Source: Oceaniferula marina (GTDB taxonomy: Bacteria; Verrucomicrobiota; Verrucomicrobiia; Verrucomicrobiales; Akkermansiaceae). From it: a stretch of DNA of 64,000 nt. Every line of letters starts with the position of its first letter. Position 1 is the first letter of the stretch. Below the pieces are notes generated by a model that was not told where the DNA came from, searched no databases, and saw only the letters and a list, made by a program, of their open reading frames with translations. The stretch spans positions 124,001 to 188,000 of the forward strand of contig NZ_JACBAZ010000001.1 in NCBI RefSeq assembly GCF_013391475.1. The letters are read 5' to 3'. Made by a program: the position numbers and the translations under genes. Shown here in pieces: positions 1 through 31,103 of this stretch.

Positions 1-2035
1 GTTGTCCACGGTGGTAGGTGATCTGGTAGGTGTTAAACAGATTGCCACTGTAGGCCTTTCCCGAGTTGGTGTTGCGGGTGCGGTAGTGGAGAACTGCAAA
101 TGCGGTTAAGGTGTTGCGGCCTGCACCCTTGACCCGGATGGCTTCGGTGATTTGATAACTGCGCTGGTTGTATTTCCCTGCATATTTCAAGAGGTCTTTT
201 TTGATGTAGTCTTGAGTAGCAGATTCGATTTTGTAGTAGGGGCTTACTTGCTTATCGTAGTAATCGAGCTGTTTGAGGATGGATCCTCTGTCTGAGTTGC
301 CCGCTTTGATGAATCGGGTGATGAATTCGACGATGTCTTTTTTCTGGGCTTCGGCATTGTAGCGGACCGATGCTTCCTCGAGGACTTCGTTGTTGATCGC
401 GGAGATGACAGGTTTGTTGTGTTTGGTTCCGATGGAGAGTTTGCTGAGGACTTTACCTGTGCGAGATTCCACACCATTGCTAACTTCGTATTGCAGGGCT
501 GTTTGCGTGTGGTAGAGATGGGAGGATGCGCGATCAATATGGATGTTGGTGCCTGGTGTGTAATTTCGCTCGGGCCACCGCTGGTTATAATTCCGGCTGT
601 CGGTGTCGATGGCATTCCGAGGATACGACGGTTTACCAAAGTAGTTGACGTAGTCGGCATAATATTTGAGTTGTTGTCCGGTTTTTCCATCATTGTAGTA
701 GTCGAGGACGAACTGCCTGATGTCGGAATGGCTGACGGGTTTGAGGTCGTTTTTATTGTCAGTTGAGTCTTGCTGGTTCTGCTGCTGTTTTGATTCGGAT
801 GTTTTTGTTTGGTGATTGGTTTCTGATTTGAGGGTGTTGGTTTGCTTCGCAGTTTGGTTTTTGTTTTGCTGTTGGTAGTGTTTGACGCCGAGATAGGTTC
901 CCAGCGTGATGAGTCCGATTAATAAAAAGATGATGCCGCTTAGGAGCACGACCGGTTTTTGTTTGCGGTGGCGTGTTGTCTGTCGGACGGTCGATGGAGA
1001 CCTGCGGTCGGGCTGATGGGGGACGGGCGGTTTCGCTTTGTTGGGGTTCGGTTTGAGGGGGGCGGTGGTTTGCTGATGGTTTGTTTGTTGATGGTTTGTT
1101 TGTTGTTTCGCCGCTCTTGGGCCGATTTGAGCTGCGATATGCCTCAATTCATCTTGCCAGATGCGAGCATTTTGAGGTCGCTGGCGTTCGCTCATCTGCA
1201 TAGCGTGCGCAATGGCGTTCGAGAGTGTTGGCGAGGCTTTGCGGAGCTGGAGCAGGGGAATGCATGGATCTTTTTTTCCATGGCGCAGGGCGTTGTTGCG
1301 GTCCGGGGCCTCAGGCGGAGGCGTGCCCGTGAGCATGAAATAGGCGACGGATGCCAGGGCGTAGACATCGGACCATGGCCCCTGGTATTTTGCTTCGGTC
1401 GAGTATTGTTCGATGGGTGCGTATCCGGGGGAGATGATGGAGGTGATGGCTTGGCTTTTGAGCGCGACGAGATTGCGGGAGGCTCCGAAGTCGAGCAGGA
1501 TCGGCATCTGCTTGCTTTGCTCGAGGATGATGTTTTCGGGTTTAATGTCCCGGTGTAAGATCCCGGCTTGGTGGATGGTGTTGACGGCATCACAGAGAGA
1601 GATCAATATATTGAGACATTGGCCTTCCGTGAAGGTTCCGTAGGCTGCTACGTGACCTTTGATGTCATCGCCCTGAATGTAGGGCATCACCATGTAGGCT
1701 GTGCCGTTTTGCTCAAAAAACTCAAGCATCCGGACAAGGTGGGGGTGTTTGAACTTAGCCAGAGTTCTGGCCTCTTTGATGAACGAGTCGATGGCCCAAC
1801 GGAAATCATCATGCAGCGACTGGGAGTGTGCGCTTACACTGAGGTCATGATGTCGTGTTGCGATCGCCGTGGGAAGCAGCTCCTTGATGGCTAGTTCCGA
1901 GCCCGTATGAATATCTTGTGCTGCATAGGTGATACCAAAGCCACCCTTGCCGATCACCCGCGTGATTTGATAGTGATTGACAATATGTCCAGGAGGGAGC
2001 GCCAAGGCGTCCTCATCTGGGAGGTTGGGGGACAT
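1..2035 (-). CDS. Transmembrane Ser/Thr protein kinase, C-terminus cut by window edge
   Basis: An open frame on the minus strand starts at ATG 2035 and is still open at base 1, so the 3' end is missing (about 678 residues visible). It has a full Hanks-type kinase domain: glycine loop VIGKGGFGITY near residue 28, catalytic Lys in AIKELLP near 51, HRDIKPEN near 160, DFGAS, and GYAPIEQYS in the activation segment. A Gln/Lys/Thr-rich linker leads to one membrane helix near 360-380 (LLSGIIFLLIGLITLG). The outer part has two stretches with the YYG...RWPxRxY pattern seen in NTF2-like extracellular domains. It starts 20 nt after the stop of the vWA gene at 2056, so the two are probably cotranscribed. 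Predicted role: inner-membrane kinase sensing the periplasm. It is a paralogue of the kinase at 7232-10036. Kinase identity is firm; ligand and targets are unknown. Confidence 0.93.
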   Translation of the reverse strand, partial: MSPNLPDEDALALPPGHIVNHYQITRVIGKGGFGITYAAQDIHTGSELAIKELLPTAIATRHHDLSVSAHSQSLHDDFRWAIDSFIKEARTLAKFKHPHLVRMLEFFEQNGTAYMVMPYIQGDDIKGHVAAYGTFTEGQCLNILISLCDAVNTIHQAGILHRDIKPENIILEQSKQMPILLDFGASRNLVALKSQAITSIISPGYAPIEQYSTEAKYQGPWSDVYALASVAYFMLTGTPPPEAPDRNNALRHGKKDPCIPLLQLRKASPTLSNAIAHAMQMSERQRPQNARIWQDELRHIAAQIGPRAAKQQTNHQQTNHQQTTAPLKPNPNKAKPPVPHQPDRRSPSTVRQTTRHRKQKPVVLLSGIIFLLIGLITLGTYLGVKHYQQQNKNQTAKQTNTLKSETNHQTKTSESKQQQNQQDSTDNKNDLKPVSHSDIRQFVLDYYNDGKTGQQLKYYADYVNYFGKPSYPRNAIDTDSRNYNQRWPERNYTPGTNIHIDRASSHLYHTQTALQYEVSNGVESRTGKVLSKLSIGTKHNKPVISAINNEVLEEASVRYNAEAQKKDIVEFITRFIKAGNSDRGSILKQLDYYDKQVSPYYKIESATQDYIKKDLLKYAGKYNQRSYQITEAIRVKGAGRNTLTAFAVLHYRTRNTNSGKAYSGNLFNTYQITYHRGQ
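1074..1103. repeat. Two perfect 15-bp tandem copies inside the kinase gene
   Basis: The unit TGATGGTTTGTTTGT occurs twice head to tail. Being a multiple of three, it keeps frame and encodes a duplicated Asn-His-Gln-Gln-Thr unit in the cytoplasmic linker between kinase domain and membrane helix. Copy-number change would alter linker length without breaking the protein. Confidence 0.85.
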
Positions 2036-2055
2036 GATTTTGTAGGAGGTGTGGG

Positions 2056-2937
2056 TCAGGGCGAAAGGGTCGCCCGGATCAGACTGTTGAGCATACGGCC
2101 GCTGTCTTCAATGTATTCTCCGTCACCGCGGCGGGCCAGATTTTGGAGGAAGCCGGGTGCTTGATCGTCCATGTTGTCCGTTCTGGCCAAAATGGATGTC
2201 ACTCTGCTGGAGATTGACGAGCGGGAGCTGTTGCTGAACTTGGAAGCCAATTGCCAGGCCTGCTCTTCGTTTTTGGCGGAAGCATCGGTGATGACCACGA
2301 TGATGTGTTTCCAATTACCTGAAGTCCAACTCATTTGACTAGCCTGCTCCAGGGCGATGGATACGGACTCGGGTTTGTCCGAGTTCTTATCGGAACTTGC
2401 TTCCAGAGCATCGACGAAGCGGCTCAGGCTGCGAAACGATTGGTCGTTCATTTCTCGGATTGGAAATTTTTTGGTGACATAGGATGTGGCGCTGCTGGCC
2501 TCGACTTCATCCCGGTAAGCGACAAAACCAATTCGAATCCGTTTATTGACGAGCTTGAGGGTGTCAACCACATCCTTGAGGTTGGTTTTGATGTCCTCCA
2601 GATGGCTGTCCATGCTGCTGGTCGTGTCGCAGACGAATACAATTTCCACATCTTTCGGTTGAAGTGATGCCGCTTCGGCTTCGGCTTTTTTTTGTGCGGC
2701 TTCGTGTCGGGCCGCTTTGGCTTCCGCTTTGTTACGGGCTGCCTCCATGGTGGCCGCTGTCTTTTTTGCTTCTTCTAACTGGGCTGAGACGATTCGAGCT
2801 TTGGCTACGAGGTCATCATTCTTCATGTAGTAGGGGAAGAGGATGACAGCGATGATTACGAAGGCCCCCATAGCCGACGCAAAAAGGTCGAGCGTGGAAA
2901 TACTAAAAATATTCAATTGACGGGATGGGCGCCTCAT
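2056..2937 (-). CDS. Single-helix membrane protein with periplasmic vWA domain (MotB/ExbD-like helix)
   Basis: The protein has about 293 residues from ATG 2937; a GTG at 2949 would add four residues. A short basic N-terminus is followed by one helix, roughly residues 18-38, reading TLDLFASAMGAFVIIAVIL. The Asp at the helix start followed by a small/aromatic pattern resembles MotB, ExbD and ZorB stator helices (my comparison from memory). An Ala/Lys/Glu-rich coiled coil comes next (about 45-95). A vWA domain follows with MIDAS motif DTTSS after a hydrophobic strand and a later ITDAS strand end. Topology should place the vWA domain in the periplasm. The gene is divergent from the vWA-FHA operon and is followed by a kinase gene 20 nt downstream. 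It probably partners the MotA/TolQ/ExbB-like protein at 4832-5587. The vWA call is strong; the stator role is inference. Confidence 0.88.
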   Translation of the reverse strand: MRRPSRQLNIFSISTLDLFASAMGAFVIIAVILFPYYMKNDDLVAKARIVSAQLEEAKKTAATMEAARNKAEAKAARHEAAQKKAEAEAASLQPKDVEIVFVCDTTSSMDSHLEDIKTNLKDVVDTLKLVNKRIRIGFVAYRDEVEASSATSYVTKKFPIREMNDQSFRSLSRFVDALEASSDKNSDKPESVSIALEQASQMSWTSGNWKHIIVVITDASAKNEEQAWQLASKFSNSSRSSISSRVTSILARTDNMDDQAPGFLQNLARRGDGEYIEDSGRMLNSLIRATLSP

Positions 2938-3022
2938 AAGTAATACCACTAGGGTAGTCTTGTGATGTGTGACAAGTTTATTTCAGTGTCATAATGTCAT
3001 TTGAACGTGCATCCAAACTCTT

Positions 3023-3036
3023 AAGCCACTAGGCTT
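3023..3036. repeat. Inverted repeat in the divergent intergenic region (AAGCC-ACTA-GGCTT)
   Basis: A perfect 5-bp stem with a 4-nt loop lies 24 nt before the ATG of the vWA-FHA gene, in the 122-bp region between two divergent operons (2938-3059). TGTCAT also occurs twice nearby. It could be an operator or a 5' leader hairpin. I found no convincing -35/-10 pair in this region. Confidence 0.35.
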
Positions 3037-3059
3037 GTTAAATCTTATCCCCCTATAAA

Positions 3060-4781
3060 ATGATTAGACGCTCGATTGATAGTTCACTGTTTGCCAAGGT
3101 TTTTCTGATTTGGTTTTTGATTCTAACCAAACTGATGGGTGGGTTGGATGAACGATACACTGGGGTAAGTGAAGATGTGGATAAACCGAATCTGGTTCGT
3201 TTTGAATATAAGTTGAACCCTTACGAGGAAGTTACCGGAGTCTCCGTTAAGAGTGATGCAGATGAGCTCTTTCCCAAATTGCTTTCCTATGTTGATCAGC
3301 CGGATGCCAAAACCGCAGTGTTGTTTCTCATCGATACCAGCAACCCTCGGCGGGGAAAAGAGGTTGAGCAGGCGAGAAAGTTGGTTATGGACACCTTGAG
3401 TGCTGCGGATGCCACGCGTCATGTGATCGGGGTCTATCCTTTTCATGGTCAGATCGACGAGGGGTTTGCTCCCATGGGGACGCCTTTAAAGGAACTTCAG
3501 GAAAAAGCAAAGACGATCAAGGCAAACGGGATCAACACCATTCTTTATGGTAGTGCGTTGAAGGCAATTGGTATTTTGGAAAAGACCGAGGCCGAACGTA
3601 AGGCCATTGTAATTATTTCGGATTGGAAAAGTGAAGACAATGTCATGGATGCAAAGGGCTTTGTGCAGAAGGCCGAAACATTACTTCGAAATGGTAAGAT
3701 TGTTTGCCATAGTGTGATTCTTGCAGAAGAGGATCAGAGTGAAGTGGATACGGCTGAGCATTTGGCTGAGTCAACCGGAGGGCAGGTAGTCAAGGTGTCG
3801 AAAAAGAATCTCCGGATCCCGGCATCTTTTGCTGGAGAGTTGCTGTTGCATTTGGAAAGTGGTGGGCAGGCTGTGGTTGATCTGACAGGTCGGGAACAAG
3901 CCGCCAAGGTTGTCTTCGAAGTGCAAACAAAATCAGGCGCTACTTATCCTTATACCTATGACCGTCAAGCGAAGACGGGAGGGGCTTCGGACGTTGTTGA
4001 TCCAAAGAACCCCCAAGCGACAGATCCTGATGCTGATCCTGGTGCCGCTGTTGATCCTGATGAGGATACCAGTGGTGGCGATGCTCCGGGGGATACGACG
4101 AACCCTGATGAGGCTCAAGGACCTGACCAAGGTTCGGCGTCGTCAGATGATGGGGCAGCTGGGTCTGATTCGAAATCAACGAAATCGGAAGAGGGTGGTT
4201 TTCTTGGGCTGCCAATTTGGATGGTGCTTTCCGGTGTGGGAGTAGGTGTCGTTGTTCTGGTGATTTTGATTGTTCTGATTCTGCGCAATAAAGAGGAAGA
4301 TGTTTTTGAGCAGGATTATCAGGCTCAGGATCTGGATGGGGACAACCCGTTTGTTGTTGATGATGCCGTAGATCCGGTTGACGCTCCTGAGAACGATCCA
4401 TTGCAAGTGCCTGCTCTGTATGCCGCTGAGTTTGAGCTCGGCAATGGGACGGCCATTTGTAACACCTTGCCGGATCCTGGAGAGGAGGTTGCGGCCTACC
4501 TCAAATTTGGAGAAGCAGGCTCACGCGGTGTGTATCCGATTGCCAAGACCGCGGTTCGCATTGGCCGGGGGCAGGACAACGATCTGTCATTGAAAAATGA
4601 CAGTGTGTCGAGGCATCATGCTGAGATTCTGAACAAACGCGACGGAAGTTTTTCCATCACTGATCTGGACTCCGGGAACCGGGTCTACGTGAATGGTGAG
4701 GAGATTACTCAGGCCTCGCTGCAGGTAGGCGATGTGGTCGAGGTCGGGGAAGTCACATTTACTTTTGATCTCGAGGCCTGA
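3060..4781 (+). CDS. vWA - transmembrane - FHA signalling protein
   Basis: The protein has 573 residues. An N-terminal hydrophobic segment (about 10-28, signal peptide or anchor) precedes a vWA-like domain (about 75-260; LFLIDTSNP and IVIISDWKSED at the MIDAS positions). A long acidic Asp/Pro/Ser linker follows (about 305-380). Then comes a strong membrane helix (about 387-412) ending in Lys/Glu. A C-terminal FHA domain (about 485-570) has the hallmarks IGRGQDNDL, SRHHAEI and VNGEEI. So vWA should be outside the inner membrane and the phosphothreonine-binding FHA domain inside. The MIDAS is degenerate: the fifth residue is Pro in place of Ser. First gene of a four-gene plus-strand run ending with a phosphatase. 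Role: probable link between a periplasmic event and kinase-dependent binding in the cytoplasm. Confidence 0.9.
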   Translation: MIRRSIDSSLFAKVFLIWFLILTKLMGGLDERYTGVSEDVDKPNLVRFEYKLNPYEEVTGVSVKSDADELFPKLLSYVDQPDAKTAVLFLIDTSNPRRGKEVEQARKLVMDTLSAADATRHVIGVYPFHGQIDEGFAPMGTPLKELQEKAKTIKANGINTILYGSALKAIGILEKTEAERKAIVIISDWKSEDNVMDAKGFVQKAETLLRNGKIVCHSVILAEEDQSEVDTAEHLAESTGGQVVKVSKKNLRIPASFAGELLLHLESGGQAVVDLTGREQAAKVVFEVQTKSGATYPYTYDRQAKTGGASDVVDPKNPQATDPDADPGAAVDPDEDTSGGDAPGDTTNPDEAQGPDQGSASSDDGAAGSDSKSTKSEEGGFLGLPIWMVLSGVGVGVVVLVILIVLILRNKEEDVFEQDYQAQDLDGDNPFVVDDAVDPVDAPENDPLQVPALYAAEFELGNGTAICNTLPDPGEEVAAYLKFGEAGSRGVYPIAKTAVRIGRGQDNDLSLKNDSVSRHHAEILNKRDGSFSITDLDSGNRVYVNGEEITQASLQVGDVVEVGEVTFTFDLEA

Positions 4782-4831
4782 TTTGAAAGGAGTCCTTCAA
4801 ATGTTTATTCACTGCGATTATTGATTTCCCT

Positions 4832-5587
4832 ATGGAACGATTATTAACGGCGATTATCGCCATCATGTTGGGTATTGTAACGGTGGTTGTACTGAACCTC
4901 TCGTTGACGGGCGGTGAGACCGCCGCGATGCTACTGATCAACAAGTCAGATAACGCGTTGGTCTGGGTATCTGAGCAGGCATTAATGTGGATGTTTTTTT
5001 ACCTTGGCTTGGGAGAGTTGGTCTTACGTTTTCTCGCCTCGAGCAAAGAGGGAAAACAAACCAAGCGCAACCTGCTTCCCGAGGAGGATTCTGTGATATT
5101 GACCTCCAAGGAATTGCCCGCTGTTTATACCAGGGCCAAACAGGCGGGGAGCGCGTATTTACCCCGCTTGATTCAACGAGTGGTCCGCCAATTCCAAATT
5201 TCGCAATCAGCAGATCAGGCCAACAGTGTGCTGGATTCCAGTATGGAGCTTTTCCTGCATGAGATTGATTTAAAATACAATATGCTCCGATACATTATGT
5301 GGGTGATTCCTACGATTGGCTTTATTGGAACGGTTCGAGGGATTGCTTTGGGCTTGAGTACCGCAGCCGCGGAATCTCATAAGGGCAATACCGATGATTT
5401 GCTTTATGTGGTGTCGACCGATTTGGCGGTTGCTTTTTATACGACCATGCTGGCGCTGGTGATGTCCGGTGTGCTGGTTTTGATCATGCATATTTGCCAA
5501 GGCCGGGAAGAAGGTGGTCTGAACCGCTCCGGGCAGTATTGTATCGACCACCTGATTAATAAACTCTACAATCCACAACCATCATAA
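4832..5587 (+). CDS. MotA/TolQ/ExbB-like proton-channel protein
   Basis: The protein has 251 residues and four predicted membrane helices (about 5-25, 48-70, 152-178, 198-225) with a cytoplasmic loop of some 80 residues between helices 2 and 3. The family signature is in helix 3: IPTIGFIGTVRGI followed by LGLSTA. The next helix follows STDLAVAFYTTMLAL, the usual pore-side segment. Known members form pentamers around a dimer of single-helix partners and use ion flow to do mechanical work. The obvious local partner is the single-helix vWA protein at 2056-2937, encoded on the other arm of this locus. No TolR/ExbD or OmpA-type MotB is present. It lies 50 nt after the vWA-FHA gene and 15 nt before the FHA gene. 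Family call strong; the ion used is unknown. Confidence 0.88.
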   Translation: MERLLTAIIAIMLGIVTVVVLNLSLTGGETAAMLLINKSDNALVWVSEQALMWMFFYLGLGELVLRFLASSKEGKQTKRNLLPEEDSVILTSKELPAVYTRAKQAGSAYLPRLIQRVVRQFQISQSADQANSVLDSSMELFLHEIDLKYNMLRYIMWVIPTIGFIGTVRGIALGLSTAAAESHKGNTDDLLYVVSTDLAVAFYTTMLALVMSGVLVLIMHICQGREEGGLNRSGQYCIDHLINKLYNPQPS

Positions 5588-5602
5588 ACCAAATAGACGA
5601 CT

Positions 5603-6319
5603 ATGGACTCTGACGCCGATAAAACCCGAATGATCCGAAGGAGCCGTCCAGCCAGCGATGCTGGGACGCCTGCTACCCCACCGAAATTGCCCGACACTTC
5701 TCATCACGACCCGGATGCAACCCGTATTATTCAGCCCAATCAAGCGCCTCAACCCAGTTTGCATCAAGTTCCTGAAACAGGGGGGATCGATGACGATGCG
5801 ACCCGTCTGATTGCGCAACCGAATCCTGGTCTTGATCCAGGGGCACCACAAAGTGCAGGAGTGGATGATTCCGATAAAACCAAATTGGTGCGTCGGTCTT
5901 CCGGGGGTGCGGCAAGTGTTGCCACCACAGGCTCATCGCAAGGGCCCGGAACTTCCATGGACGATCCTGTGACCGGATGGTTGGTGGTTATTGACGGACC
6001 GGGTAAAGGGAATCAGGTGGCCATTGGTGAGCAGGATAATCATGTTGGCCGGTCAGGAGGGGCAGACGGGGCCCGGGTTTGTTTGGATTTTGGCGATCAC
6101 GGTATCTCCAGGAACAATGCCTTTGTGCTACGCTATGATCCTAAAAAGCGCCGCTTCAAAATTTTGCCAGGGGAGGGAGCCAACATTGTTTATTTGAACG
6201 ATGATGATTTGGATGTCCCCACGGAAATAAAAGCGGGAGATGTGATTGAACTCAGCGATACCAAATTACGTTTTGTGCCGTTTTGCGGACCTGAATTTGA
6301 TTGGGTCGACACGGAGTAA
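5603..6319 (+). CDS. Cytoplasmic FHA-domain protein with repeated Asp-x-Thr-Arg motifs
   Basis: The protein has 238 residues and no signal peptide or membrane helix. The N-terminal half is Pro/Ser/Gln rich and carries four short threonine motifs: DKTRMIRRS, DATRIIQ, DATRLIA and DKTKLVRRS. The C-terminal half (about 128-230) is an FHA domain: a GKGNQVAIG strand, HVGRSGG, then HGISRNNAFV and a late YLNDDD turn. The conserved His of SRxxH is replaced by Asn. Such a layout fits a small adaptor phosphorylated on threonine by a membrane kinase and bound by its own or another FHA domain. The same K-T-R motif recurs at the end of the next gene's phosphatase. Gene spacing of 15 nt before and 32 nt after supports an operon. 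The phospho-sites are inferred only. Confidence 0.85.
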   Translation: MDSDADKTRMIRRSRPASDAGTPATPPKLPDTSHHDPDATRIIQPNQAPQPSLHQVPETGGIDDDATRLIAQPNPGLDPGAPQSAGVDDSDKTKLVRRSSGGAASVATTGSSQGPGTSMDDPVTGWLVVIDGPGKGNQVAIGEQDNHVGRSGGADGARVCLDFGDHGISRNNAFVLRYDPKKRRFKILPGEGANIVYLNDDDLDVPTEIKAGDVIELSDTKLRFVPFCGPEFDWVDTE

Positions 6320-6351
6320 GGCCGCGGGGTTCGATTCTGAGGACATGATTC

Positions 6352-7203
6352 ATGTTTGAAGTAGAGAGAGATTTTGCTGGTTTGCAGCGTCCGGGGGCTC
6401 GTCCGTATCAGGAGGATTCCCAGGGCTTTGCTGTGCTCTCGGAACGTGAGGACGGCGGGATTGAAACCTTGCTGGTTGTCTTGGCTGATGGCATGGGGGG
6501 TGAAAATGCCGGTGATTATGCAAGCCAAACAGTGGTTGATACCTTTGTTGCCTATTGTCATACACACTATCATTCGGATCGGGTTCCAGAGATGTTGACA
6601 AGCGCGATGCAGGTAGCCAATGAAAAGGTGGCAGATGCCATTGTTCGCAAACCTTCATTGGAGGGCATGGGGTCTACCTTGCTTGCCGCTGTGGTGAGCG
6701 AGGACTCTTTGTATTGGCTCAGCGTCGGAGACTCACCGCTTTATTTGTTCCGTGACGGGAAGTTGAGTCAGATCAACGAGGATCATTCGATGATGCCGGT
6801 GTTGTTGAAGCTCGTTGAAGAAGGGGATTTGGAAGAGGCTGAGTTGGCGACACACCCTGACCGGAACGTGTTGCGATCAGCGATTATCGGGGATGAAATT
6901 GAACTGATTGACTGCCCCGATCAAGCAATTGCCATGCAAGCGGGTGATGTGCTGCTTGTGGCATCAGACGGATTGCAGACTCTGGAGAAGGAGGAGATCG
7001 AATTGCGGCTCACGCGGCATAAACAGCTGCCCGCAGATGGGCTTGCCCGGATTCTCTTGCGTGCTGTTGAACGTGCAGCGAACCCTAAACAGGACAATGT
7101 TTCGATTAACGTTGTTTGTCTACCCGGTCTGACCCGAACAGGGGATGTGGATGAAGATTGGATGAGTAAAACCCGTATCTTACGGCGCGGTGAGGAGGGG
7201 TGA
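6352..7203 (+). CDS. PP2C-type (PPM) Ser/Thr protein phosphatase
   Basis: The protein has 283 residues, is soluble, and matches the usual length of bacterial PPM phosphatases. The metal-binding motifs are intact: RPYQEDS, LADGMGGENAGDYAS, MGSTLLAAV, LSVGDSPLYLF, LLVASDGLQTL and the closing QDNVSINVV. It should remove phosphate from Thr/Ser residues placed by the two flanking membrane kinases. An unusual short tail follows the catalytic domain and ends SKTRILRRG, matching the DKTRMIRRS motif of the FHA protein just upstream, so the phosphatase may itself be a kinase substrate and FHA ligand. It is the last gene of the plus-strand run; the kinase gene at 7232 converges on it with a 28-nt gap and no visible terminator. 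Confidence 0.95.
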   Translation: MFEVERDFAGLQRPGARPYQEDSQGFAVLSEREDGGIETLLVVLADGMGGENAGDYASQTVVDTFVAYCHTHYHSDRVPEMLTSAMQVANEKVADAIVRKPSLEGMGSTLLAAVVSEDSLYWLSVGDSPLYLFRDGKLSQINEDHSMMPVLLKLVEEGDLEEAELATHPDRNVLRSAIIGDEIELIDCPDQAIAMQAGDVLLVASDGLQTLEKEEIELRLTRHKQLPADGLARILLRAVERAANPKQDNVSINVVCLPGLTRTGDVDEDWMSKTRILRRGEEG

Positions 7204-7231
7204 TCCCGAGCTGGGTTTCTCCGAGTAATGG

Positions 7232-10036
7232 TTAATACCTGACGGATGTGACGTAAGGTTTTCCTTTTTGGAAGCGGACTTTGACCCGTTCGTCACGAGT
7301 GGTTTTATGGGTTCCTTTGATGACATCCGTTTTACAGACAAAGGTAAAGGTCGTGCCTTTGCCTGAGGCCGCATCCGTGATGTGCTTGAAGTCTGAATAC
7401 GAGCGGGCTGTATAGATTCTGGTTCCATGTTTTGCCCGGGATGTTTTTATTTTTTGTGTGATTTCCGCCCGGTTAAGCGTCCGGTCGCCATAGTATTCAG
7501 TGCTGTCTGAGTAGTAGGCCGCTTCGCCTGCCGGGGATTCACCACCCTCGGAGTCTCCCGCAGTGAGCCGTTTTTGATTAAATTCTTTGAGTCGTTCGAT
7601 CAGGGCGTCGTCGTCAAAGCTTCGGTCGTCTTCATCATCTTCTCCATCCTGGTCATCATCTCGTTTAATGCTCTTGTGTGACCCGATCAAAGGAATGCCA
7701 TTAAATTCGGCAATAGCAAAGAGTCCTTTTCGTTTCCCTTTAATGGTGAAGATTCCATCGCTCCATTCGTAGGTGTATTTGATCGAGACGACCCACGTTT
7801 GTTTGGAGTCTGAGAGGCGGGATGTTACAGAGTCGGGGTCAATGGTGTATGACCTGATTGACCAATGGGAGAACAGCTCGGAGGTTTCTTTTGCTATCTC
7901 TGTTCTGGATTTGTGGTTCTCCTGATCGTCACCCCAGTAGACCTGGGTGTGTAGTAGTTTCATTTGTTCGGCAGTGCTGTGCCTGCTGCTCCCTTTGTTG
8001 ATGAAAGCTTTTGCGACGGCAATGGCTTCTTCTTTTGTTATCCCTTCTGGGGCCTCCTTTTGAGGGGATAGCTTGATTGCTGGCAAACTGATCGGGCTGC
8101 CGATGCTGTTCATCTCGAACTTCTTTGTAGATTCCTGGAATCCCTGCGCTTTTACCGTCAATGTGTTTGGACCCTCTTGGTTTGCCCGGAATGAGCCTGA
8201 TTGAAGTTGGATTTTTTTTCCGTTTAGATAGAGGTCTGCTGTTTTCGGTTCTACAGTGATAGAGACGAGGGATTGATTTTTTTGAATGAACTTATCTGCT
8301 TTTTTGATGGATGCCTTGGCCTTGTCCTTCAGTGATTCGGGTATGTCTTCTCCTTTGAGCTCCTGGTTTGCATAGTAGATATTTTGATACTCTTCATCTG
8401 CGAGTGCTTCATTAAGATCATCAATGAGGTCTACAATTTTTGTTGATTGTTTGTCAGGTTTGAGTGTGACCGACCCCAGTTCGATGACGCCGTCGATCTC
8501 TTTGACGTTGAAATTAATCGATTGTGGTCGATAGCCATCAGCGGTAATTCTCAAGGTGCGGTTACCGAGCCCTTTGACTTTGATGCTGCCATTCTTCAAC
8601 GGGCATGGCGTGCCATTGATCGAAGTGGTGACTGCCCTCGGCTGGATATTGATTTTCACACTGGTGAGAGAGTTTTCGACCAGATGCGAGTATTGTTTTT
8701 TGAGCTTGTCGTAGTGGCTTTGCTGTTCCGGCGTCAGGCTGTTTCGTTCGATCCCGTCGAGAATGGCAAGTGCTTTTTCATGTTGCCTGACATCCAGATA
8801 GGTTTCTGCCTGGGTGAGTTTTTTAGGAGTGGTGGTGTCGGCGGGGGCAGCTTCAGGTGTTGTTTCAGCTGTTGTTTCGGACCAGTGTTTCCATGCGACC
8901 AGTCCTCCGGCTGTAACCAGAGTCAGCACGAGAACGGCAACGGCTCCGAAGAGTAAGATATGGGGCTTTTTGCTCCGTGGTGCTTGGCCGGATGGGGGTG
9001 TCGCGGCAATGGGAGAATTGGGGCCTAGTGATGATGTCGGACCTGTCGAATGTGGTGGCGGAGAGTGTGGTGGTGGAGAATGAAAGCTCGACTCGGGAGT
9101 GGCTGTTGCCGGTGATGGAGTGGTGGTGGTCGAGTGAAGCGTTAGATGATCTCTCCAGGCGGAAATGGATTGTGGCCGCTGGCTTTCCGCCATTTCGAGA
9201 GCTTGGTCAATTCCTTCCAAAAAGGATGGAGGAAAGCCGATATACTGGGAAGCGGTGTCTGATAATTTCGGTTGAGGGTCAGGTTGTTGGTTGCGATGCG
9301 CATCACTCCGATCACTGGCCGGAACCGGCTGTTTGCCTGTGATCATGAAATAGGCACAGGCGGCAAGAGCGTAGATGTCACTCCAGGGGCCCTGATACTT
9401 GGCATCGGTCGAATACTGTTCTACGGGAGCGTAGCCTGGAGTGATGATACTGGTTACATCCTGGGTTTTGCCACTGATCTGCTGGCGAGCTGCTCCGAAA
9501 TCAATCAGCATCGGTTTACCTTCGCTAGAGATGATGATGTTGTCGGGTTTGATATCGCGGTGTAGCGTGTTGGCCTGGTGCACGATCTCGAGCCCATCCA
9601 TCAGGGCCAGTAGGATGGCTTGCACTTTTTCATAGGGCAGGGGGCCGTTGTTTTTGACAACTTGTTTCAGGCTAAGGCCTTCGACAAAGGGCATGACCAT
9701 GTAAGCCGTCTGATGGGCCTCGAAGAGGCGGTAGACGTGTACGATGTTCGGGTGGTTGAAACTAGCGAGAATCTGAGCTTCTTTCAGGAAAGAATCCACG
9801 GCCCATCGGAAGTCGGATTCCAGACTGCGGGTCTGGGCGATCACACTGTATCCGTCTCCGCGGGTGGCAATCCCGTCCGGCAGTAGCTCCTTGATTGCTA
9901 CTTTTTTACGTAAATTGACATCTTCCGCAAGATACGTGATTCCAAAGCCCCCTTTGCCGAGGACGGATTCGATGCGGTAGTCTTTGATTTGGCTGCCTTG
10001 GGGAAGGCAGTGAGAAGGGTATTCAGGGGGAGTCAT
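7232..10036 (-). CDS. Large transmembrane Ser/Thr kinase with PEGA-like and NTF2-like domains
   Basis: The protein has 934 residues. Kinase domain, about 20-300: VLGKGGFGITY, Lys in AIKELLP near 49, HRDIKPDN, DFGAARQ, GYAPVEQYS. A Pro/Ser/His linker with repeated PPPHS follows, then one helix near 358-380. The periplasmic part holds a helical stretch, two PEGA-like beta units (near 455-520 and 590-655, with INGTPC and LNGKKI turns), and two segments resembling the YYGxxxxxR domains of the kinase at 1-2035. A run of Asp/Glu (DDDQDGEDDEDD) separates the last two. All catalytic residues are present. It is transcribed on its own and converges on the phosphatase gene. Probable job: senses an envelope state and phosphorylates the FHA proteins. 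The name of the ligand cannot be read from sequence. Confidence 0.93.
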   Translation of the reverse strand: MTPPEYPSHCLPQGSQIKDYRIESVLGKGGFGITYLAEDVNLRKKVAIKELLPDGIATRGDGYSVIAQTRSLESDFRWAVDSFLKEAQILASFNHPNIVHVYRLFEAHQTAYMVMPFVEGLSLKQVVKNNGPLPYEKVQAILLALMDGLEIVHQANTLHRDIKPDNIIISSEGKPMLIDFGAARQQISGKTQDVTSIITPGYAPVEQYSTDAKYQGPWSDIYALAACAYFMITGKQPVPASDRSDAHRNQQPDPQPKLSDTASQYIGFPPSFLEGIDQALEMAESQRPQSISAWRDHLTLHSTTTTPSPATATPESSFHSPPPHSPPPHSTGPTSSLGPNSPIAATPPSGQAPRSKKPHILLFGAVAVLVLTLVTAGGLVAWKHWSETTAETTPEAAPADTTTPKKLTQAETYLDVRQHEKALAILDGIERNSLTPEQQSHYDKLKKQYSHLVENSLTSVKINIQPRAVTTSINGTPCPLKNGSIKVKGLGNRTLRITADGYRPQSINFNVKEIDGVIELGSVTLKPDKQSTKIVDLIDDLNEALADEEYQNIYYANQELKGEDIPESLKDKAKASIKKADKFIQKNQSLVSITVEPKTADLYLNGKKIQLQSGSFRANQEGPNTLTVKAQGFQESTKKFEMNSIGSPISLPAIKLSPQKEAPEGITKEEAIAVAKAFINKGSSRHSTAEQMKLLHTQVYWGDDQENHKSRTEIAKETSELFSHWSIRSYTIDPDSVTSRLSDSKQTWVVSIKYTYEWSDGIFTIKGKRKGLFAIAEFNGIPLIGSHKSIKRDDDQDGEDDEDDRSFDDDALIERLKEFNQKRLTAGDSEGGESPAGEAAYYSDSTEYYGDRTLNRAEITQKIKTSRAKHGTRIYTARSYSDFKHITDAASGKGTTFTFVCKTDVIKGTHKTTRDERVKVRFQKGKPYVTSVRY

Positions 10037-27832: not shown

Positions 27833-28516
27833 ATGAACAGCACGATGGCTGAAGAATCAGAAGAAAACGGCGAAAACGGCGAAGACGCCAAGATGGAAGC
27901 AGCGTATGCGCATACCCGGAAGAGTTTGATTGCCAGACTGGATAACTGGGAGGATCAGCGGACGTGGGATGATTTTTACAAAACCTATTGGAAACTGATT
28001 TACTCGGTGGCCATGAAAGCCGGATTGCGTTCGGAAGAGGCATTCGACGTTGTTCAGGAGACCATTATTTCGATTGCCAAGCAGAGTAAGAAAAACATGT
28101 ATGATCCGGACAAGGGCTCATTCAAGTCCTGGCTGATGAATATGACCCGTTGGCGGATCAACGATCAGTTCCGTAAACGTAAAAAGGACACGGCGATGAG
28201 TATCAGCGAGTGGGGTGAGGAAGGCCGGAAGACTTCGGTGATCGACAGTGTGGAGGATACCAAAAGTGGCACCCTTGAGCGCTTGTGGGAAGTGGAATGG
28301 AAAAAGAACCTGGCGGATGCCGCGCTAGCGCGGGTTAAGGCGCAGGTCTCTCCCAAACAATACCAGATCTTTGATTGTTATGTCATCCGGGAGTGGGATG
28401 CGGACCGGGTGAAAGCCCACCTTGGCGTGAGTATGTCGCAGGTGTATTTGGCAAAGCACCGGGTAGGAAAGATCCTCAAAAAGGAGCTCGCCCGTCTGAA
28501 CGAAGATGAGGGGTAA
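27833..28516 (+). CDS. ECF-type RNA polymerase sigma factor
   Basis: The protein has 227 residues. After a Glu-rich N-terminal tail of some 25 residues, sigma region 2 is seen in WDDFYKTYWKLIYSVAMKAG, EEAFDVVQETIISIAKQ and KGSFKSWLMNMTRWRINDQF followed by a basic RKRKK stretch. Region 4 is the helix-turn-helix near 175-220: VSPKQYQIFDCYVI, VKAHLGVSMSQVYLAKHRV. No anti-sigma factor is encoded next to it. Instead the gene overlaps by 11 nt with a membrane kinase gene, which suggests that phosphorylation controls it. Family call strong. Its regulon is unknown; the operon itself is a candidate. Confidence 0.92.
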   Translation: MNSTMAEESEENGENGEDAKMEAAYAHTRKSLIARLDNWEDQRTWDDFYKTYWKLIYSVAMKAGLRSEEAFDVVQETIISIAKQSKKNMYDPDKGSFKSWLMNMTRWRINDQFRKRKKDTAMSISEWGEEGRKTSVIDSVEDTKSGTLERLWEVEWKKNLADAALARVKAQVSPKQYQIFDCYVIREWDADRVKAHLGVSMSQVYLAKHRVGKILKKELARLNEDEG

Positions 28517-31103
28517 GGTTCGTCCAGAGCCGGAGATTCCGGATCACAAGGTGCTGCGCAAGATTGGTGGTGGCTCCTATGGCGAAGTGTGGTTGGCCCA
28601 GGGGGTGACTGGCGCGATGCGTGCCGTCAAGGTGGTTCGTCGCGAAGACTTTGAAGACGAGCGGGGATTTGAGCGCGAGTTCGAGGGGATTCTCAAGTAT
28701 GAGCCGATTTCGAGGGATCACCCCGGTCTGGTGAATATCCTTCACGTCGGGCGCAGTGAGGTGGAAGGCGAGTTTTATTACTATGTGATGGAACTCGGGG
28801 ACGATATTGATACCGGACAGGAAATCAACCCGGTTGAATATGAGGCCCGGAACCTGCTGACCGATTTGAGAAATGGTGCAGGCACGCCTTTGGATCCTGA
28901 TTTTGTCATCGATGTGGGAGTTCGCCTGTCCGAAGCCCTGCTGCATCTGCATAAAAAGGGACTCGCTCATCGCGATATCAAGCCGTCGAATATTATCTTT
29001 GTCGGGGGTAAAGCGAAATTGGCGGATATTGGACTGGTTGCAGCCCGCGGGCAGCGAACGTTTGTGGGGACCGAGGGCTTTGTTCCACCCGAGGGACCGG
29101 GATCGGCGCAGGCAGATGTTTACGGCCTGGGCAAGGTGCTCTATGAGATGGCAACGGGCAAGGACCGCCTTCAATTTCCCGAGTTGCCGGATGAATTGCC
29201 TGAATCGGCGAATCGCAAGCGCTGGCTGGCGCTCAATCAGGTGATTTGTGATATTTGCGAACCGAGGTTGAGCAAGCGTACGGTCACTTCGGCTGAGGAA
29301 TTGGCGGATGCTTTGAGGCGATTGCAACGCGGAAAGCGGATTCGCCGTCGGCGAAAGTGGTCGGTTTTGACCGTGGTGCCGATAGTTGCCGGCTTGATAT
29401 TAGTGGGTTGGGTTTTACGGGATCATGTTCCCTGGTTCCAACCGCAGTGGGGTGGTGGAGACCAAGTTGTGGATGATGAAGTTCAACCTGAAAAGTATGG
29501 CTTTGTAAAAATCACCAGCGATTTGGAAGATGTTGAAGTTTACGATGGCAACGGTGAGTTTCTCGGGTTCACTCAGTTGAAGATCATGCGCATGAAGGCT
29601 GGACGTAGCTATGCCTTTGAGTTTCGTATGGAGGGATACCGAACCGTACGTGAGGAGGTTTTGGTCAAAGCGGGTGAGACCACGGTCGTTCGTCCGGAGA
29701 TGTCGATTTATGCTCCTCCGGAGCCCGGACAAGAGTGGGTGGATAACTTTGGTATTCATTACCAACCGATGGACGGTTACCACATCAGCGAAGGTTATGT
29801 TCGTTTGTTCCAATGGCGGAGATATGAAAAACACCTGGGAAAAGAAACCGGGGCCGAGGTGATTGACCACAGTGAAAGTGGTCTGAAGCGACGGATTATT
29901 TTGGTTCAGCGGGAACAGGCTGAAGCGTATTGCCGCTGGCAGACGCAGCAGGCAGTCGATGAGGGCTACCTCGATGTAGATCAGTATATTTCGCCGAAAA
30001 TGGATCAGAGTTTTTCCGCCGCCTCGATGACGGATAAGGCAAAAAAGGAACAATTCCGGCCGTTCCAGTGTATGGTGAAGAATATCGCCTTTGCCAGCAT
30101 GGCGGTTCATTCGGAGCCGGAGGGGGCGAGTGTTCTGGTTAATGGCGTTTACAAAGGCGTGACCCCAATGCCTGTTATTGGCCGAATCAAACCTGGCAAG
30201 GTGGAGTTGAGTTTGGTGTTGGAAGGATTCAGGAGATCCACTCAGACGGTTGAACTCAAAGACTGGGCGCATGAGCAAATTAGGGTGAACCTGCAGCGAA
30301 ACAACAGCGTGGTCTTTGATGCCAACTGGGAGAATAGTCTCGGGATGCGATTGGTGCCTGTATATAAAAATCTAATGGTTTCCGCTTGGGAGACCCGAGT
30401 CTCTGATTACCAAACGTATGTTAAAGAGACCAAGGCAAACAAGCCGCCGGCCGCTGGATTTGATCAAAGCCCAAACCACCCGGTGGTGCAGGTGTCGCGC
30501 CAGGATGCCATGGGCTTCTGTGAGTGGCTCACCGAACGAGAACGCAAACAAGAGCGAATCACCAACGATGATCGGTATCGCTTGTTGACCGACTGGGAGT
30601 GGAGTTATGTTGCCGGGCTTGAGGACGGGCTTCATGATTTGCCTGCCCAGCGCGAGTTGCGTCAAGTGGGCTTGTTCCCTTGGGGCCGTTCATGGCCTCC
30701 GGAGAGGGCCGGATTTCTAGTCGGCAATCTCGCCGACCAAACGGCGAGCCAGGCTGTGGATATCCGGCGTGACCGAACATTGCTCAACTACGACGACGGC
30801 TTTGAAAAAACCTCACCGGTTGGCTCGTTCCCATCGAATGAATTCGGGGTTTACGACCTGGCGGGCAACGCCCACGAGTGGGTGATGGACGATTACAACG
30901 GGCAGGGTGACTATGGCGTTCTTCGCGGAGGGGGCTGGAACAGCTGGCAGAAAGAACACCTTTATGTCACCCACCGAAACATCATCGAACCGAAAAAACG
31001 AAGCAACCTTTACGGATTCAGGGTGGCATTGGTAAAGACACCTCCGCAACCCGAGGAACCGGAAACCGAAACCGAACTATACGAATTGAACGAAAACAAC
31101 TAA
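28506..31103 (+). CDS. Transmembrane Ser/Thr kinase with PEGA and FGE-like (SUMF1-fold) domains
   Basis: The protein has 865 residues; the start overlaps the sigma factor by 11 nt. Kinase domain, about 15-275: IGGGSYGEVWLA, Lys in MRAVKVVRR, HRDIKPSN and ADIGLV, where Phe of DFG is Ile. One helix follows near 286-306. Outside it: a PEGA unit (about 330-400), a degenerate FGE-like piece, a second PEGA unit (about 535-590; SEPEGASVLVNGVYKG) and a full FGE/SUMF1-fold domain (about 600-850) with NSLGMRLVPV, HPVVQVSRQDAMGFCEWL and DLAGNAHEWVMDD. The Cys pair used by true formylglycine-generating enzymes near the C-terminus is absent (NLYGFRV in its place), so this is probably a ligand-binding module. 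It likely senses an envelope signal and acts on the neighbouring sigma factor. Confidence 0.92.
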   Translation: MRGKVRPEPEIPDHKVLRKIGGGSYGEVWLAQGVTGAMRAVKVVRREDFEDERGFEREFEGILKYEPISRDHPGLVNILHVGRSEVEGEFYYYVMELGDDIDTGQEINPVEYEARNLLTDLRNGAGTPLDPDFVIDVGVRLSEALLHLHKKGLAHRDIKPSNIIFVGGKAKLADIGLVAARGQRTFVGTEGFVPPEGPGSAQADVYGLGKVLYEMATGKDRLQFPELPDELPESANRKRWLALNQVICDICEPRLSKRTVTSAEELADALRRLQRGKRIRRRRKWSVLTVVPIVAGLILVGWVLRDHVPWFQPQWGGGDQVVDDEVQPEKYGFVKITSDLEDVEVYDGNGEFLGFTQLKIMRMKAGRSYAFEFRMEGYRTVREEVLVKAGETTVVRPEMSIYAPPEPGQEWVDNFGIHYQPMDGYHISEGYVRLFQWRRYEKHLGKETGAEVIDHSESGLKRRIILVQREQAEAYCRWQTQQAVDEGYLDVDQYISPKMDQSFSAASMTDKAKKEQFRPFQCMVKNIAFASMAVHSEPEGASVLVNGVYKGVTPMPVIGRIKPGKVELSLVLEGFRRSTQTVELKDWAHEQIRVNLQRNNSVVFDANWENSLGMRLVPVYKNLMVSAWETRVSDYQTYVKETKANKPPAAGFDQSPNHPVVQVSRQDAMGFCEWLTERERKQERITNDDRYRLLTDWEWSYVAGLEDGLHDLPAQRELRQVGLFPWGRSWPPERAGFLVGNLADQTASQAVDIRRDRTLLNYDDGFEKTSPVGSFPSNEFGVYDLAGNAHEWVMDDYNGQGDYGVLRGGGWNSWQKEHLYVTHRNIIEPKKRSNLYGFRVALVKTPPQPEEPETETELYELNENN

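Follow-up and report, generated by a model that had tools for sequence, protein, structure and literature searches.

A putative phosphorylation-switched envelope motor of the MotA/TolQ/ExbB superfamily with exchangeable outer heads

The window analysed here is a whole 64,000-nucleotide stretch of the Oceaniferula marina genome. The genes and features with which we are concerned lie at its left end and, left of it, in locus L003:

2..2035, minus strand: Ser/Thr kinase K1 (Pfam Pkinase E 4e-39), running off the window
2056..2937, minus strand: B, the proposed pore partner, with a single helix, a coiled coil and an outer vWA head (293 aa)
2836..2892, minus strand: transmembrane (TM) helix of B, LDLFASAMGAFVIIAVILF, with the invariant Asp17 at codon 2887-2889 (alignment of 14 B proteins and hydropathy)
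2059..2649, minus strand: vWA domain forming the head of B, with its MIDAS DTTSS at codons 2614-2628 (Pfam VWA E 6e-11)
3060..4781, plus strand: vWA-FHA, a protein with vWA (outside), TM 389-407 and FHA (inside) (573 aa)
4832..5587, plus strand: A, the pore protein of the MotA/TolQ/ExbB superfamily (251 aa; Pfam MotA_ExbB E 8e-10)
5603..6319, plus strand: FHA_L, a soluble protein of 238 aa with FHA and, N-terminally, a long disordered tail
5603..5977, plus strand: tail of FHA_L with five T-x-x-I/V/L sites
6352..7203, plus strand: PP2C phosphatase 1 (Pfam PP2C_2 E 3e-13; metal-site motifs intact)
7232..10036, minus strand: Ser/Thr kinase K2 with TM 360-378 and PEGA-like outer repeats (Pfam Pkinase E 8e-41)
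L003:11085-11957, left of the window: second PP2C
L003:9496-11073, left of the window: trypsin-TM-FHA protein

An earlier note on this DNA had listed seven open reading frames, and all of them were recovered by an ORF check at the same positions and on the same strands; the second PP2C and the trypsin-TM-FHA protein escaped it because they lie left of the window, where K1 is also complete (L003:11963-14035, 690 aa). B, K1, PP2C-2 and trypsin-FHA follow one another on the minus strand, 5-20 bp apart, in what looks like a single operon. vWA-FHA, A, FHA_L and PP2C-1 make up a second operon, divergent from that of B and K1, and K2 is convergent with this A operon. Terminator-like sites number 22 in the region vs 10 expected and fall mostly within genes. 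The GC content of the locus (0.507 vs 0.520 in the rest) gives no signal of foreign origin. A domain scan found the module domains absent from the rest of the window save for one more kinase, a Ser/Thr kinase-like ORF at window positions 28506-31103, away from the A and B genes. NCBIfam named no module protein above its cut-offs, and PADLOC had no model matching B, FHA_L or vWA-FHA, whereas A, PP2C, the kinases and the protease drew weak or generic matches at best.

The two kinases, the vWA-TM-FHA protein, the FHA protein and the PP2C that had been read from the translations were all matched by Pfam, FHA_L weakly. In vWA-FHA the FHA domain is clear (E 1e-18) and the weak VWA match (E 0.005) is backed by homologues, as is the weak FHA match of FHA_L (E 0.003, below Pfam's cut-off). 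K1 has a cytosolic kinase domain with intact K, HRD and DFG motifs, a TM at 362-380 and an outer domain; by hydropathy K1 and K2 each have one TM, after the kinase domain, and vWA-FHA has an N-terminal signal/anchor followed by a TM before its FHA domain, which agrees with the arrangement suggested earlier, sensors outside and kinase and FHA parts inside. The kinase, PP2C and trypsin His/Ser motifs are intact in the window's proteins, and both kinases appear active judging by these motifs. Among 14 trypsin-like domains fused to FHA, the GNSGGP serine motif is kept in 10 and lost in 4, so that some trypsin-FHA proteins may be peptide-binding sensors, not enzymes. A metalloprotease-like domain (HE-x-x-H-type by eye) precedes TM and FHA in L026:6342-9428 and L024:5557-7770, and in L026 this protein is also fused to PP2C, an outer protease thus being tied to an inner FHA.

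The assignment of A to the MotA/TolQ/ExbB superfamily is supported by its Pfam match and by Foldseek and VIA fold matches, in line with the earlier note. Hydropathy resolves three clear helices (4-22, 155-173 and 193-211), and a further one, second in order (48-77), is visible in the AlphaFold2 model (mean pLDDT 74), so that the four long helices ascribed to A are recovered by combining the two. Top Foldseek matches of this model were ExbB, MotA, PomA and TolQ, and VIA Z scores reached 12-13 with TolQ/ExbB and about 10 with ZorA/PomA/MotA (about 10.8 for ZorA), on a scale on which some designed or unrelated helical bundles also reach 8-10. A profile of 14 A relatives against PDB sequences likewise placed TolQ first (E 1.5e-4), and similarity to MotA was weak (E 0.06). 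Thr167 (codon 5330-5332) and Thr205 (codon 5444-5446) are invariant in all 14 aligned A sequences, align with the TolQ threonines in GTV and ATA, fall in the last two helices and qualify as pore-lining threonines. In a tree of 50 A-type proteins, midpoint-rooted for drawing only, the A partners of B-like proteins form one clade (support 100/98), apart from the ExbB/TolQ of the same genomes.

The start of B at the ATG at 2937 agrees with the N-terminus of its homologues, which is nearly invariant (REINIFSMSALDLFASAMGAF; consensus of 14 B proteins, REINIFSMSALDLFASAMGAFILIAVILFPYY). It forms a helix at about 16-34, followed by a coiled coil and then the head. Asp17, near the start of the helix, is invariant in all 14 aligned B proteins. 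The earlier note had likened the string DLFASAMGAF to the MotB-type pattern; this likeness is suggestive only, with an hhalign score of 14.7 vs a shuffled-column best of 13.9, in a weak test that scores even MotB vs ExbD at only 17.0. Against ExbD, B scored 10.9, below the shuffled-column maximum of 14.7 on the same scale, and neither similarity is significant. Pfam gave B no match to MotB_plug or ExbD and no OmpA/Pal-type or peptidoglycan-binding domain, and its helix found only chance matches, to insect odorant receptors, among PDB sequences.

The vWA domain and its MIDAS (residues 104-108) were read correctly in B, and even in a structure model of low confidence (mean pLDDT 54) its outer portion resembles vWA folds (E 1e-7). 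As the defining part of the partner, however, the vWA domain did not hold up, since about half of the relatives carry other heads on the same stalk. By sequence, the heads of 25 B proteins can be sorted into five clusters: two kinds of vWA (7, with the window's B among them, and 6), beta-sandwich-like heads (9), small Cys/Trp-rich heads (2) and a singleton (1). Several unrelated head types thus ride on one conserved B stalk, and with the outer head varying while the N-terminus is nearly invariant, vWA is one option. The beta-sandwich-like heads resemble DUF2135 by eye; that identity was rejected on a Pfam E of 2.4.

Because the Asp is invariant and an ExbD HMM had no match in any B1 or B2 locus, B is very probably the pore partner of A. 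The same two observations weigh against reading B as a TolA/TonB-like transducer at the side of an A-based motor with its true B subunit elsewhere. A vWA transducer family of such a kind has been proposed (PMC12204202), and the window's genome holds 13 ExbD-family matches elsewhere; nevertheless, the N-terminal profile of B is homologous to that of a tandem vWA family (FSLSFLDCICCGFGA; hhalign probability 97.7, E 2e-12) resembling the published pore-inserted TPH-vWA proteins, and we regard the transducer as very unlikely.

Similar gene sets were found in Alphaproteobacteria, Gammaproteobacteria (Marithrix, Pseudomonas sp. WN033 and MAGs), Desulfobacterota and Verrucomicrobiota, mostly in draft genomes and rare in each group at about 0.5-2% of genomes. 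With the seed genomes counted, B had strong matches in 2 of 388 genomes from the window's phylum, in 6 of 369 drawn from the class to which the Pseudomonas genome belongs, in 8 of 337 from an alphaproteobacterial draw (10 at E 1e-6) and in 3 of 345 drawn from the phylum of the Desulfococcaceae genome (5 at E 1e-6). The alphaproteobacterial loci include a 1.3-Mb conjugative plasmid of Rhizobium leguminosarum, the one plasmid match. One gene order is seen repeatedly, FHA_S - A - FHA_L - PP2C - trypsin-FHA or vWA-FHA - B - kinase. The neighbourhood survey that the earlier note had called for, with domain models built from the same loci, found kinase, FHA and PP2C genes as regular neighbours elsewhere, an outcome that leaves the note's combined reading standing. 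Since such sets recur in four bacterial groups, the module is more than a chance grouping. The same domain kinds, kinase, PP2C and FHA, would also be present if a threonine-phosphorylation accessory set of a type VI secretion system (T6SS; PpkA/PppA/Fha-like) merely stood beside an unrelated MotA gene. This reading is contradicted by TssC, which the window's genome lacks and which 5 of 15 module genomes have and 10 do not; no T6SS genes were seen in the loci and the A-B-FHA linkage is conserved, which leaves it hardly credible.

Of 22 B loci, 16 have A alongside, in a sampling that fixes the presence of B, so that the counts inform on A and the signalling genes only. Three of the six B loci lacking A are on contigs shorter than 8 kb, and L071 is close to the start of its contig. 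The remaining two, L067 (9975-11331) and L068 (6218-6958), come from an alphaproteobacterial MAG that has its A at L025; they add three further B genes, bearing different heads and remote from A, as though a single motor could accept several heads. A small FHA gene (FHA_S) adjoins A in 15 of 19 A loci and is missing from the window. At least one locus, L103, pairs A with B in the absence of any kinase, FHA or PP2C gene, indicating that phospho-control is not obligatory for the A-B pair, and is possibly a stripped-down version of the module; its pair (L103:9054-10850) lies near a TonB-dependent receptor gene.

Candidate phosphorylation sites are concentrated in the tails of the FHA proteins. 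The FHA_L tails are long, N-terminal and of low complexity, and T-x-x-I/V/L occurs 28 times in 13 of them vs 11.6 +/- 3.0 expected from composition-preserving shuffles (z 5.5; 0 of 2000 shuffles as high), in a test that treats the 13 tails as unrelated. The excess peaks at T+3, with a smaller one at +2, largely of T-R/Q-I-type strings, and the shuffle test gave no matching excess for Ser. Four of the five sites in the window's FHA_L tail are TR[MIL]I or TKLV after acidic residues, and the C-terminal tail of PP2C-1, SKTRILRR, contains another TxxL. By eye, the C-terminal tail of FHA_S ends in T-x-x-I/V in 12 of 15 proteins, for example RDPETGEII, NPETGEII and DPATGKII. The residue at pT+3 is a known determinant of FHA specificity and binding (PMC5549992), and the enrichment has the signature of FHA ligands, with the threonines as predicted phosphorylation sites.

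Taken together, it is reasonable to suggest, with confidence somewhat above even, that the module is a phosphorylation-switched, ion-driven 5:2 inner-membrane motor whose B subunit carries an exchangeable head. Probably five copies of A would surround two of B, which would replace MotB/ExbD/TolR in an ion-driven motor of the MotA/TolQ/ExbB kind, and the ion-binding Asp of the B helix would face the Thr ring of A while the head on the B coiled coil grips or senses an envelope target in the periplasm. The kinases, through their outer sensors, could phosphorylate the T-x-x-I/V/L threonines in the tails that soluble FHA proteins and PP2C 1 carry; FHA domains, including those of the vWA-FHA and trypsin-FHA sensors, could bind these phosphothreonines, the bound FHA proteins forming a layer of regulators at A on its cytosolic side, and the PP2Cs would reset the phosphorylated state. 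The 5:2 assembly, the ion flow, the proteins phosphorylated, the direction of control and the envelope target are all deduced rather than observed. A comparable step occurs in A. tumefaciens, where FHA binding to pThr on the inner-membrane protein TssL activates the T6SS (PMC3953482).

The main rival reverses the flow of information, A and B with the head acting as a mechanosensor or tension gauge and the kinases, FHA proteins and PP2Cs signalling the envelope or contact state downstream. The heads show the variability of sensor domains, outer domains are also present on the kinases and FHA-TM proteins, and a signal could pass from the FHA proteins and PP2Cs to further targets. The kinases, however, already own outer sensor domains, and neither response regulators nor transcription factors are conserved nearby; beyond the module there are no further conserved neighbours, and the flanks share only generic response-regulator, NuoF and RND families and one other. 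Since the pore Thr and the Asp are conserved, energised work is suggested, and we consider the sensor reading unlikely. Distinctly less likely again is a gated ion leak, in which phosphorylation would open the A-B pore and depolarise the membrane as a defence or growth-arrest effector, possibly anti-phage and Zorya-like. The patchy distribution with one copy on the conjugative plasmid could fit such a role, as could weak PADLOC matches of A to ZorA (E 4e-6) and of the kinases to PD-T4-6/mad6 models, though any Hanks-type kinase may match the latter. On the other side, the module is without a nuclease or other DNA-acting effector and without conserved defence neighbours, its heads on coiled coils suggest mechanical work, and a scan of viral contigs with A confirmed no relative. 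That scan also speaks against a phage origin.

To our knowledge, the known MotA/TolQ/ExbB motors are for the most part regulated by the load or the partner that they drive, and a kinase/FHA/PP2C switch that travels with its motor would control it in a different way. If the switched-motor reading is true, the module, as a compact transferable unit, could be tested directly, and the range of heads that nature has exchanged on one invariant stalk would help in probing the role of such motors in the envelope. The vWA-motor idea of 2025 would then extend to a signalling system with a testable phospho-code. The stronger claim, a new class of 5:2 motors gated by threonine phosphorylation and FHA docking and driving exchangeable periplasmic heads (vWA types, a beta-sandwich-like domain and others) on one conserved stalk, is put forward tentatively, with somewhat less than even confidence; such a motor would be a mechanical effector of the envelope, modular and gated by signals. 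The earlier note had presented the combination as undescribed. The vWA replacement of TolR/ExbD is not new, because vWA pore partners for TolQ-like motors have already been proposed (PMC12204202); what we did not find described in the open-access literature is the combination of kinase, FHA and PP2C with the motor, and the swapping of heads.

In that proposal, TolQ-like motors have a vWA pore partner with an Asp-bearing helix, mostly as heterologous pairs (Mol Biol Evol 2025; PMC12204202), and the vWA proteins (TPH-vWA) rotate inside a TolQ-like pentamer without TolR/ExbD. The module shares with it a TM-tethered vWA, an Asp in the helix, a tolQ-like neighbour and the absence of tolR/exbD. TPH-vWA proteins are mostly heterologous pairs, whereas B is single in the window and most relatives (pairs occur in L099, L102 and L067, and possibly in L100); the TPH-vWA head is a vWA, whereas module heads go beyond it; and the paper mentions neither kinase nor FHA, whereas the module has kinase, FHA, PP2C and protease-FHA. 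The tandem vWA family, compared by description only, is probably the published TPH-vWA (Idiomarina set). Its loci combine an A-type gene with one or two vWA genes (FSLSFLDCICCGFGAVILLFVL; L063:4917-9469, L069:5034-8998, L104, L105, L108 and L109), with PEGA/FGE-sulfatase and TPR proteins as neighbours in some (L104, L108) and, by eye, an adjoining actin/Hsp70-like protein in L063. A third clade of relatives is found within the window's taxonomic order (L135:3645-7814, L136:4087-7724, L137:4092-7367, L138:1985-5254). Its A-type proteins of 420-510 aa have a zinc-ribbon-like motif at the N-terminus and are accompanied by two dissimilar single-helix partners, of which just one has an Asp in the helix motif (SLDSLLDTMTNVVGVL).

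Among the classical motors, TolQR/ExbBD provide the best fold and sequence matches of A, and the pore Thr and the Asp helix of B are alike; however, the periplasmic ExbD/TolR domain and its gene are missing beside A in all B loci, A sits in a separate clade and has four long helices in its model, and membership was rejected. MotAB/PomAB resemble the module by eye in the Asp-first helix pattern and also have four long helices in A, but B is without their peptidoglycan-binding domain and the A-MotA likeness is weak. With ZorAB the module shares the fold match of A to ZorA, but it is without ZorC/D/E, the ZorA tail and the OmpA/Pal-like head; Zorya membership was rejected, the outer part of B being a vWA and PADLOC giving no ZorC, ZorD or ZorE match among nine module proteins of the window locus. 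The Zorya paper does not mention kinases.

Signalling parallels exist in several envelope and motility systems. In Myxococcus gliding, the TolQ-type AglR binds the FHA-domain membrane protein GltG in two-hybrid assays (PMC3169522), a TolQ-type motor with an FHA membrane protein as here, although AglRQS-GltG has TolR-type AglQ/S and a TonB-like GltG, and no kinase/PP2C module is reported for it. The T6SS PpkA-PppA-Fha pathway controls an envelope machine with kinase and FHA, and PP2C in other systems, via inner-membrane pThr (PMC3953482), but the machine differs and the window's genome has no sheath gene. Sulfolobus ArnA-ArnB, an FHA and a vWA protein, repress motility in a phosphorylation-dependent manner via archaellum expression (PMC6509490), a phospho-control of motility by FHA and vWA that is alike but has no MotA-type motor. 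The TerY triad, finally, combines vWA, kinase and PP2C, kinds of protein also present in the module, where however the vWA proteins are membrane-anchored, with their vWA domains predicted outside.
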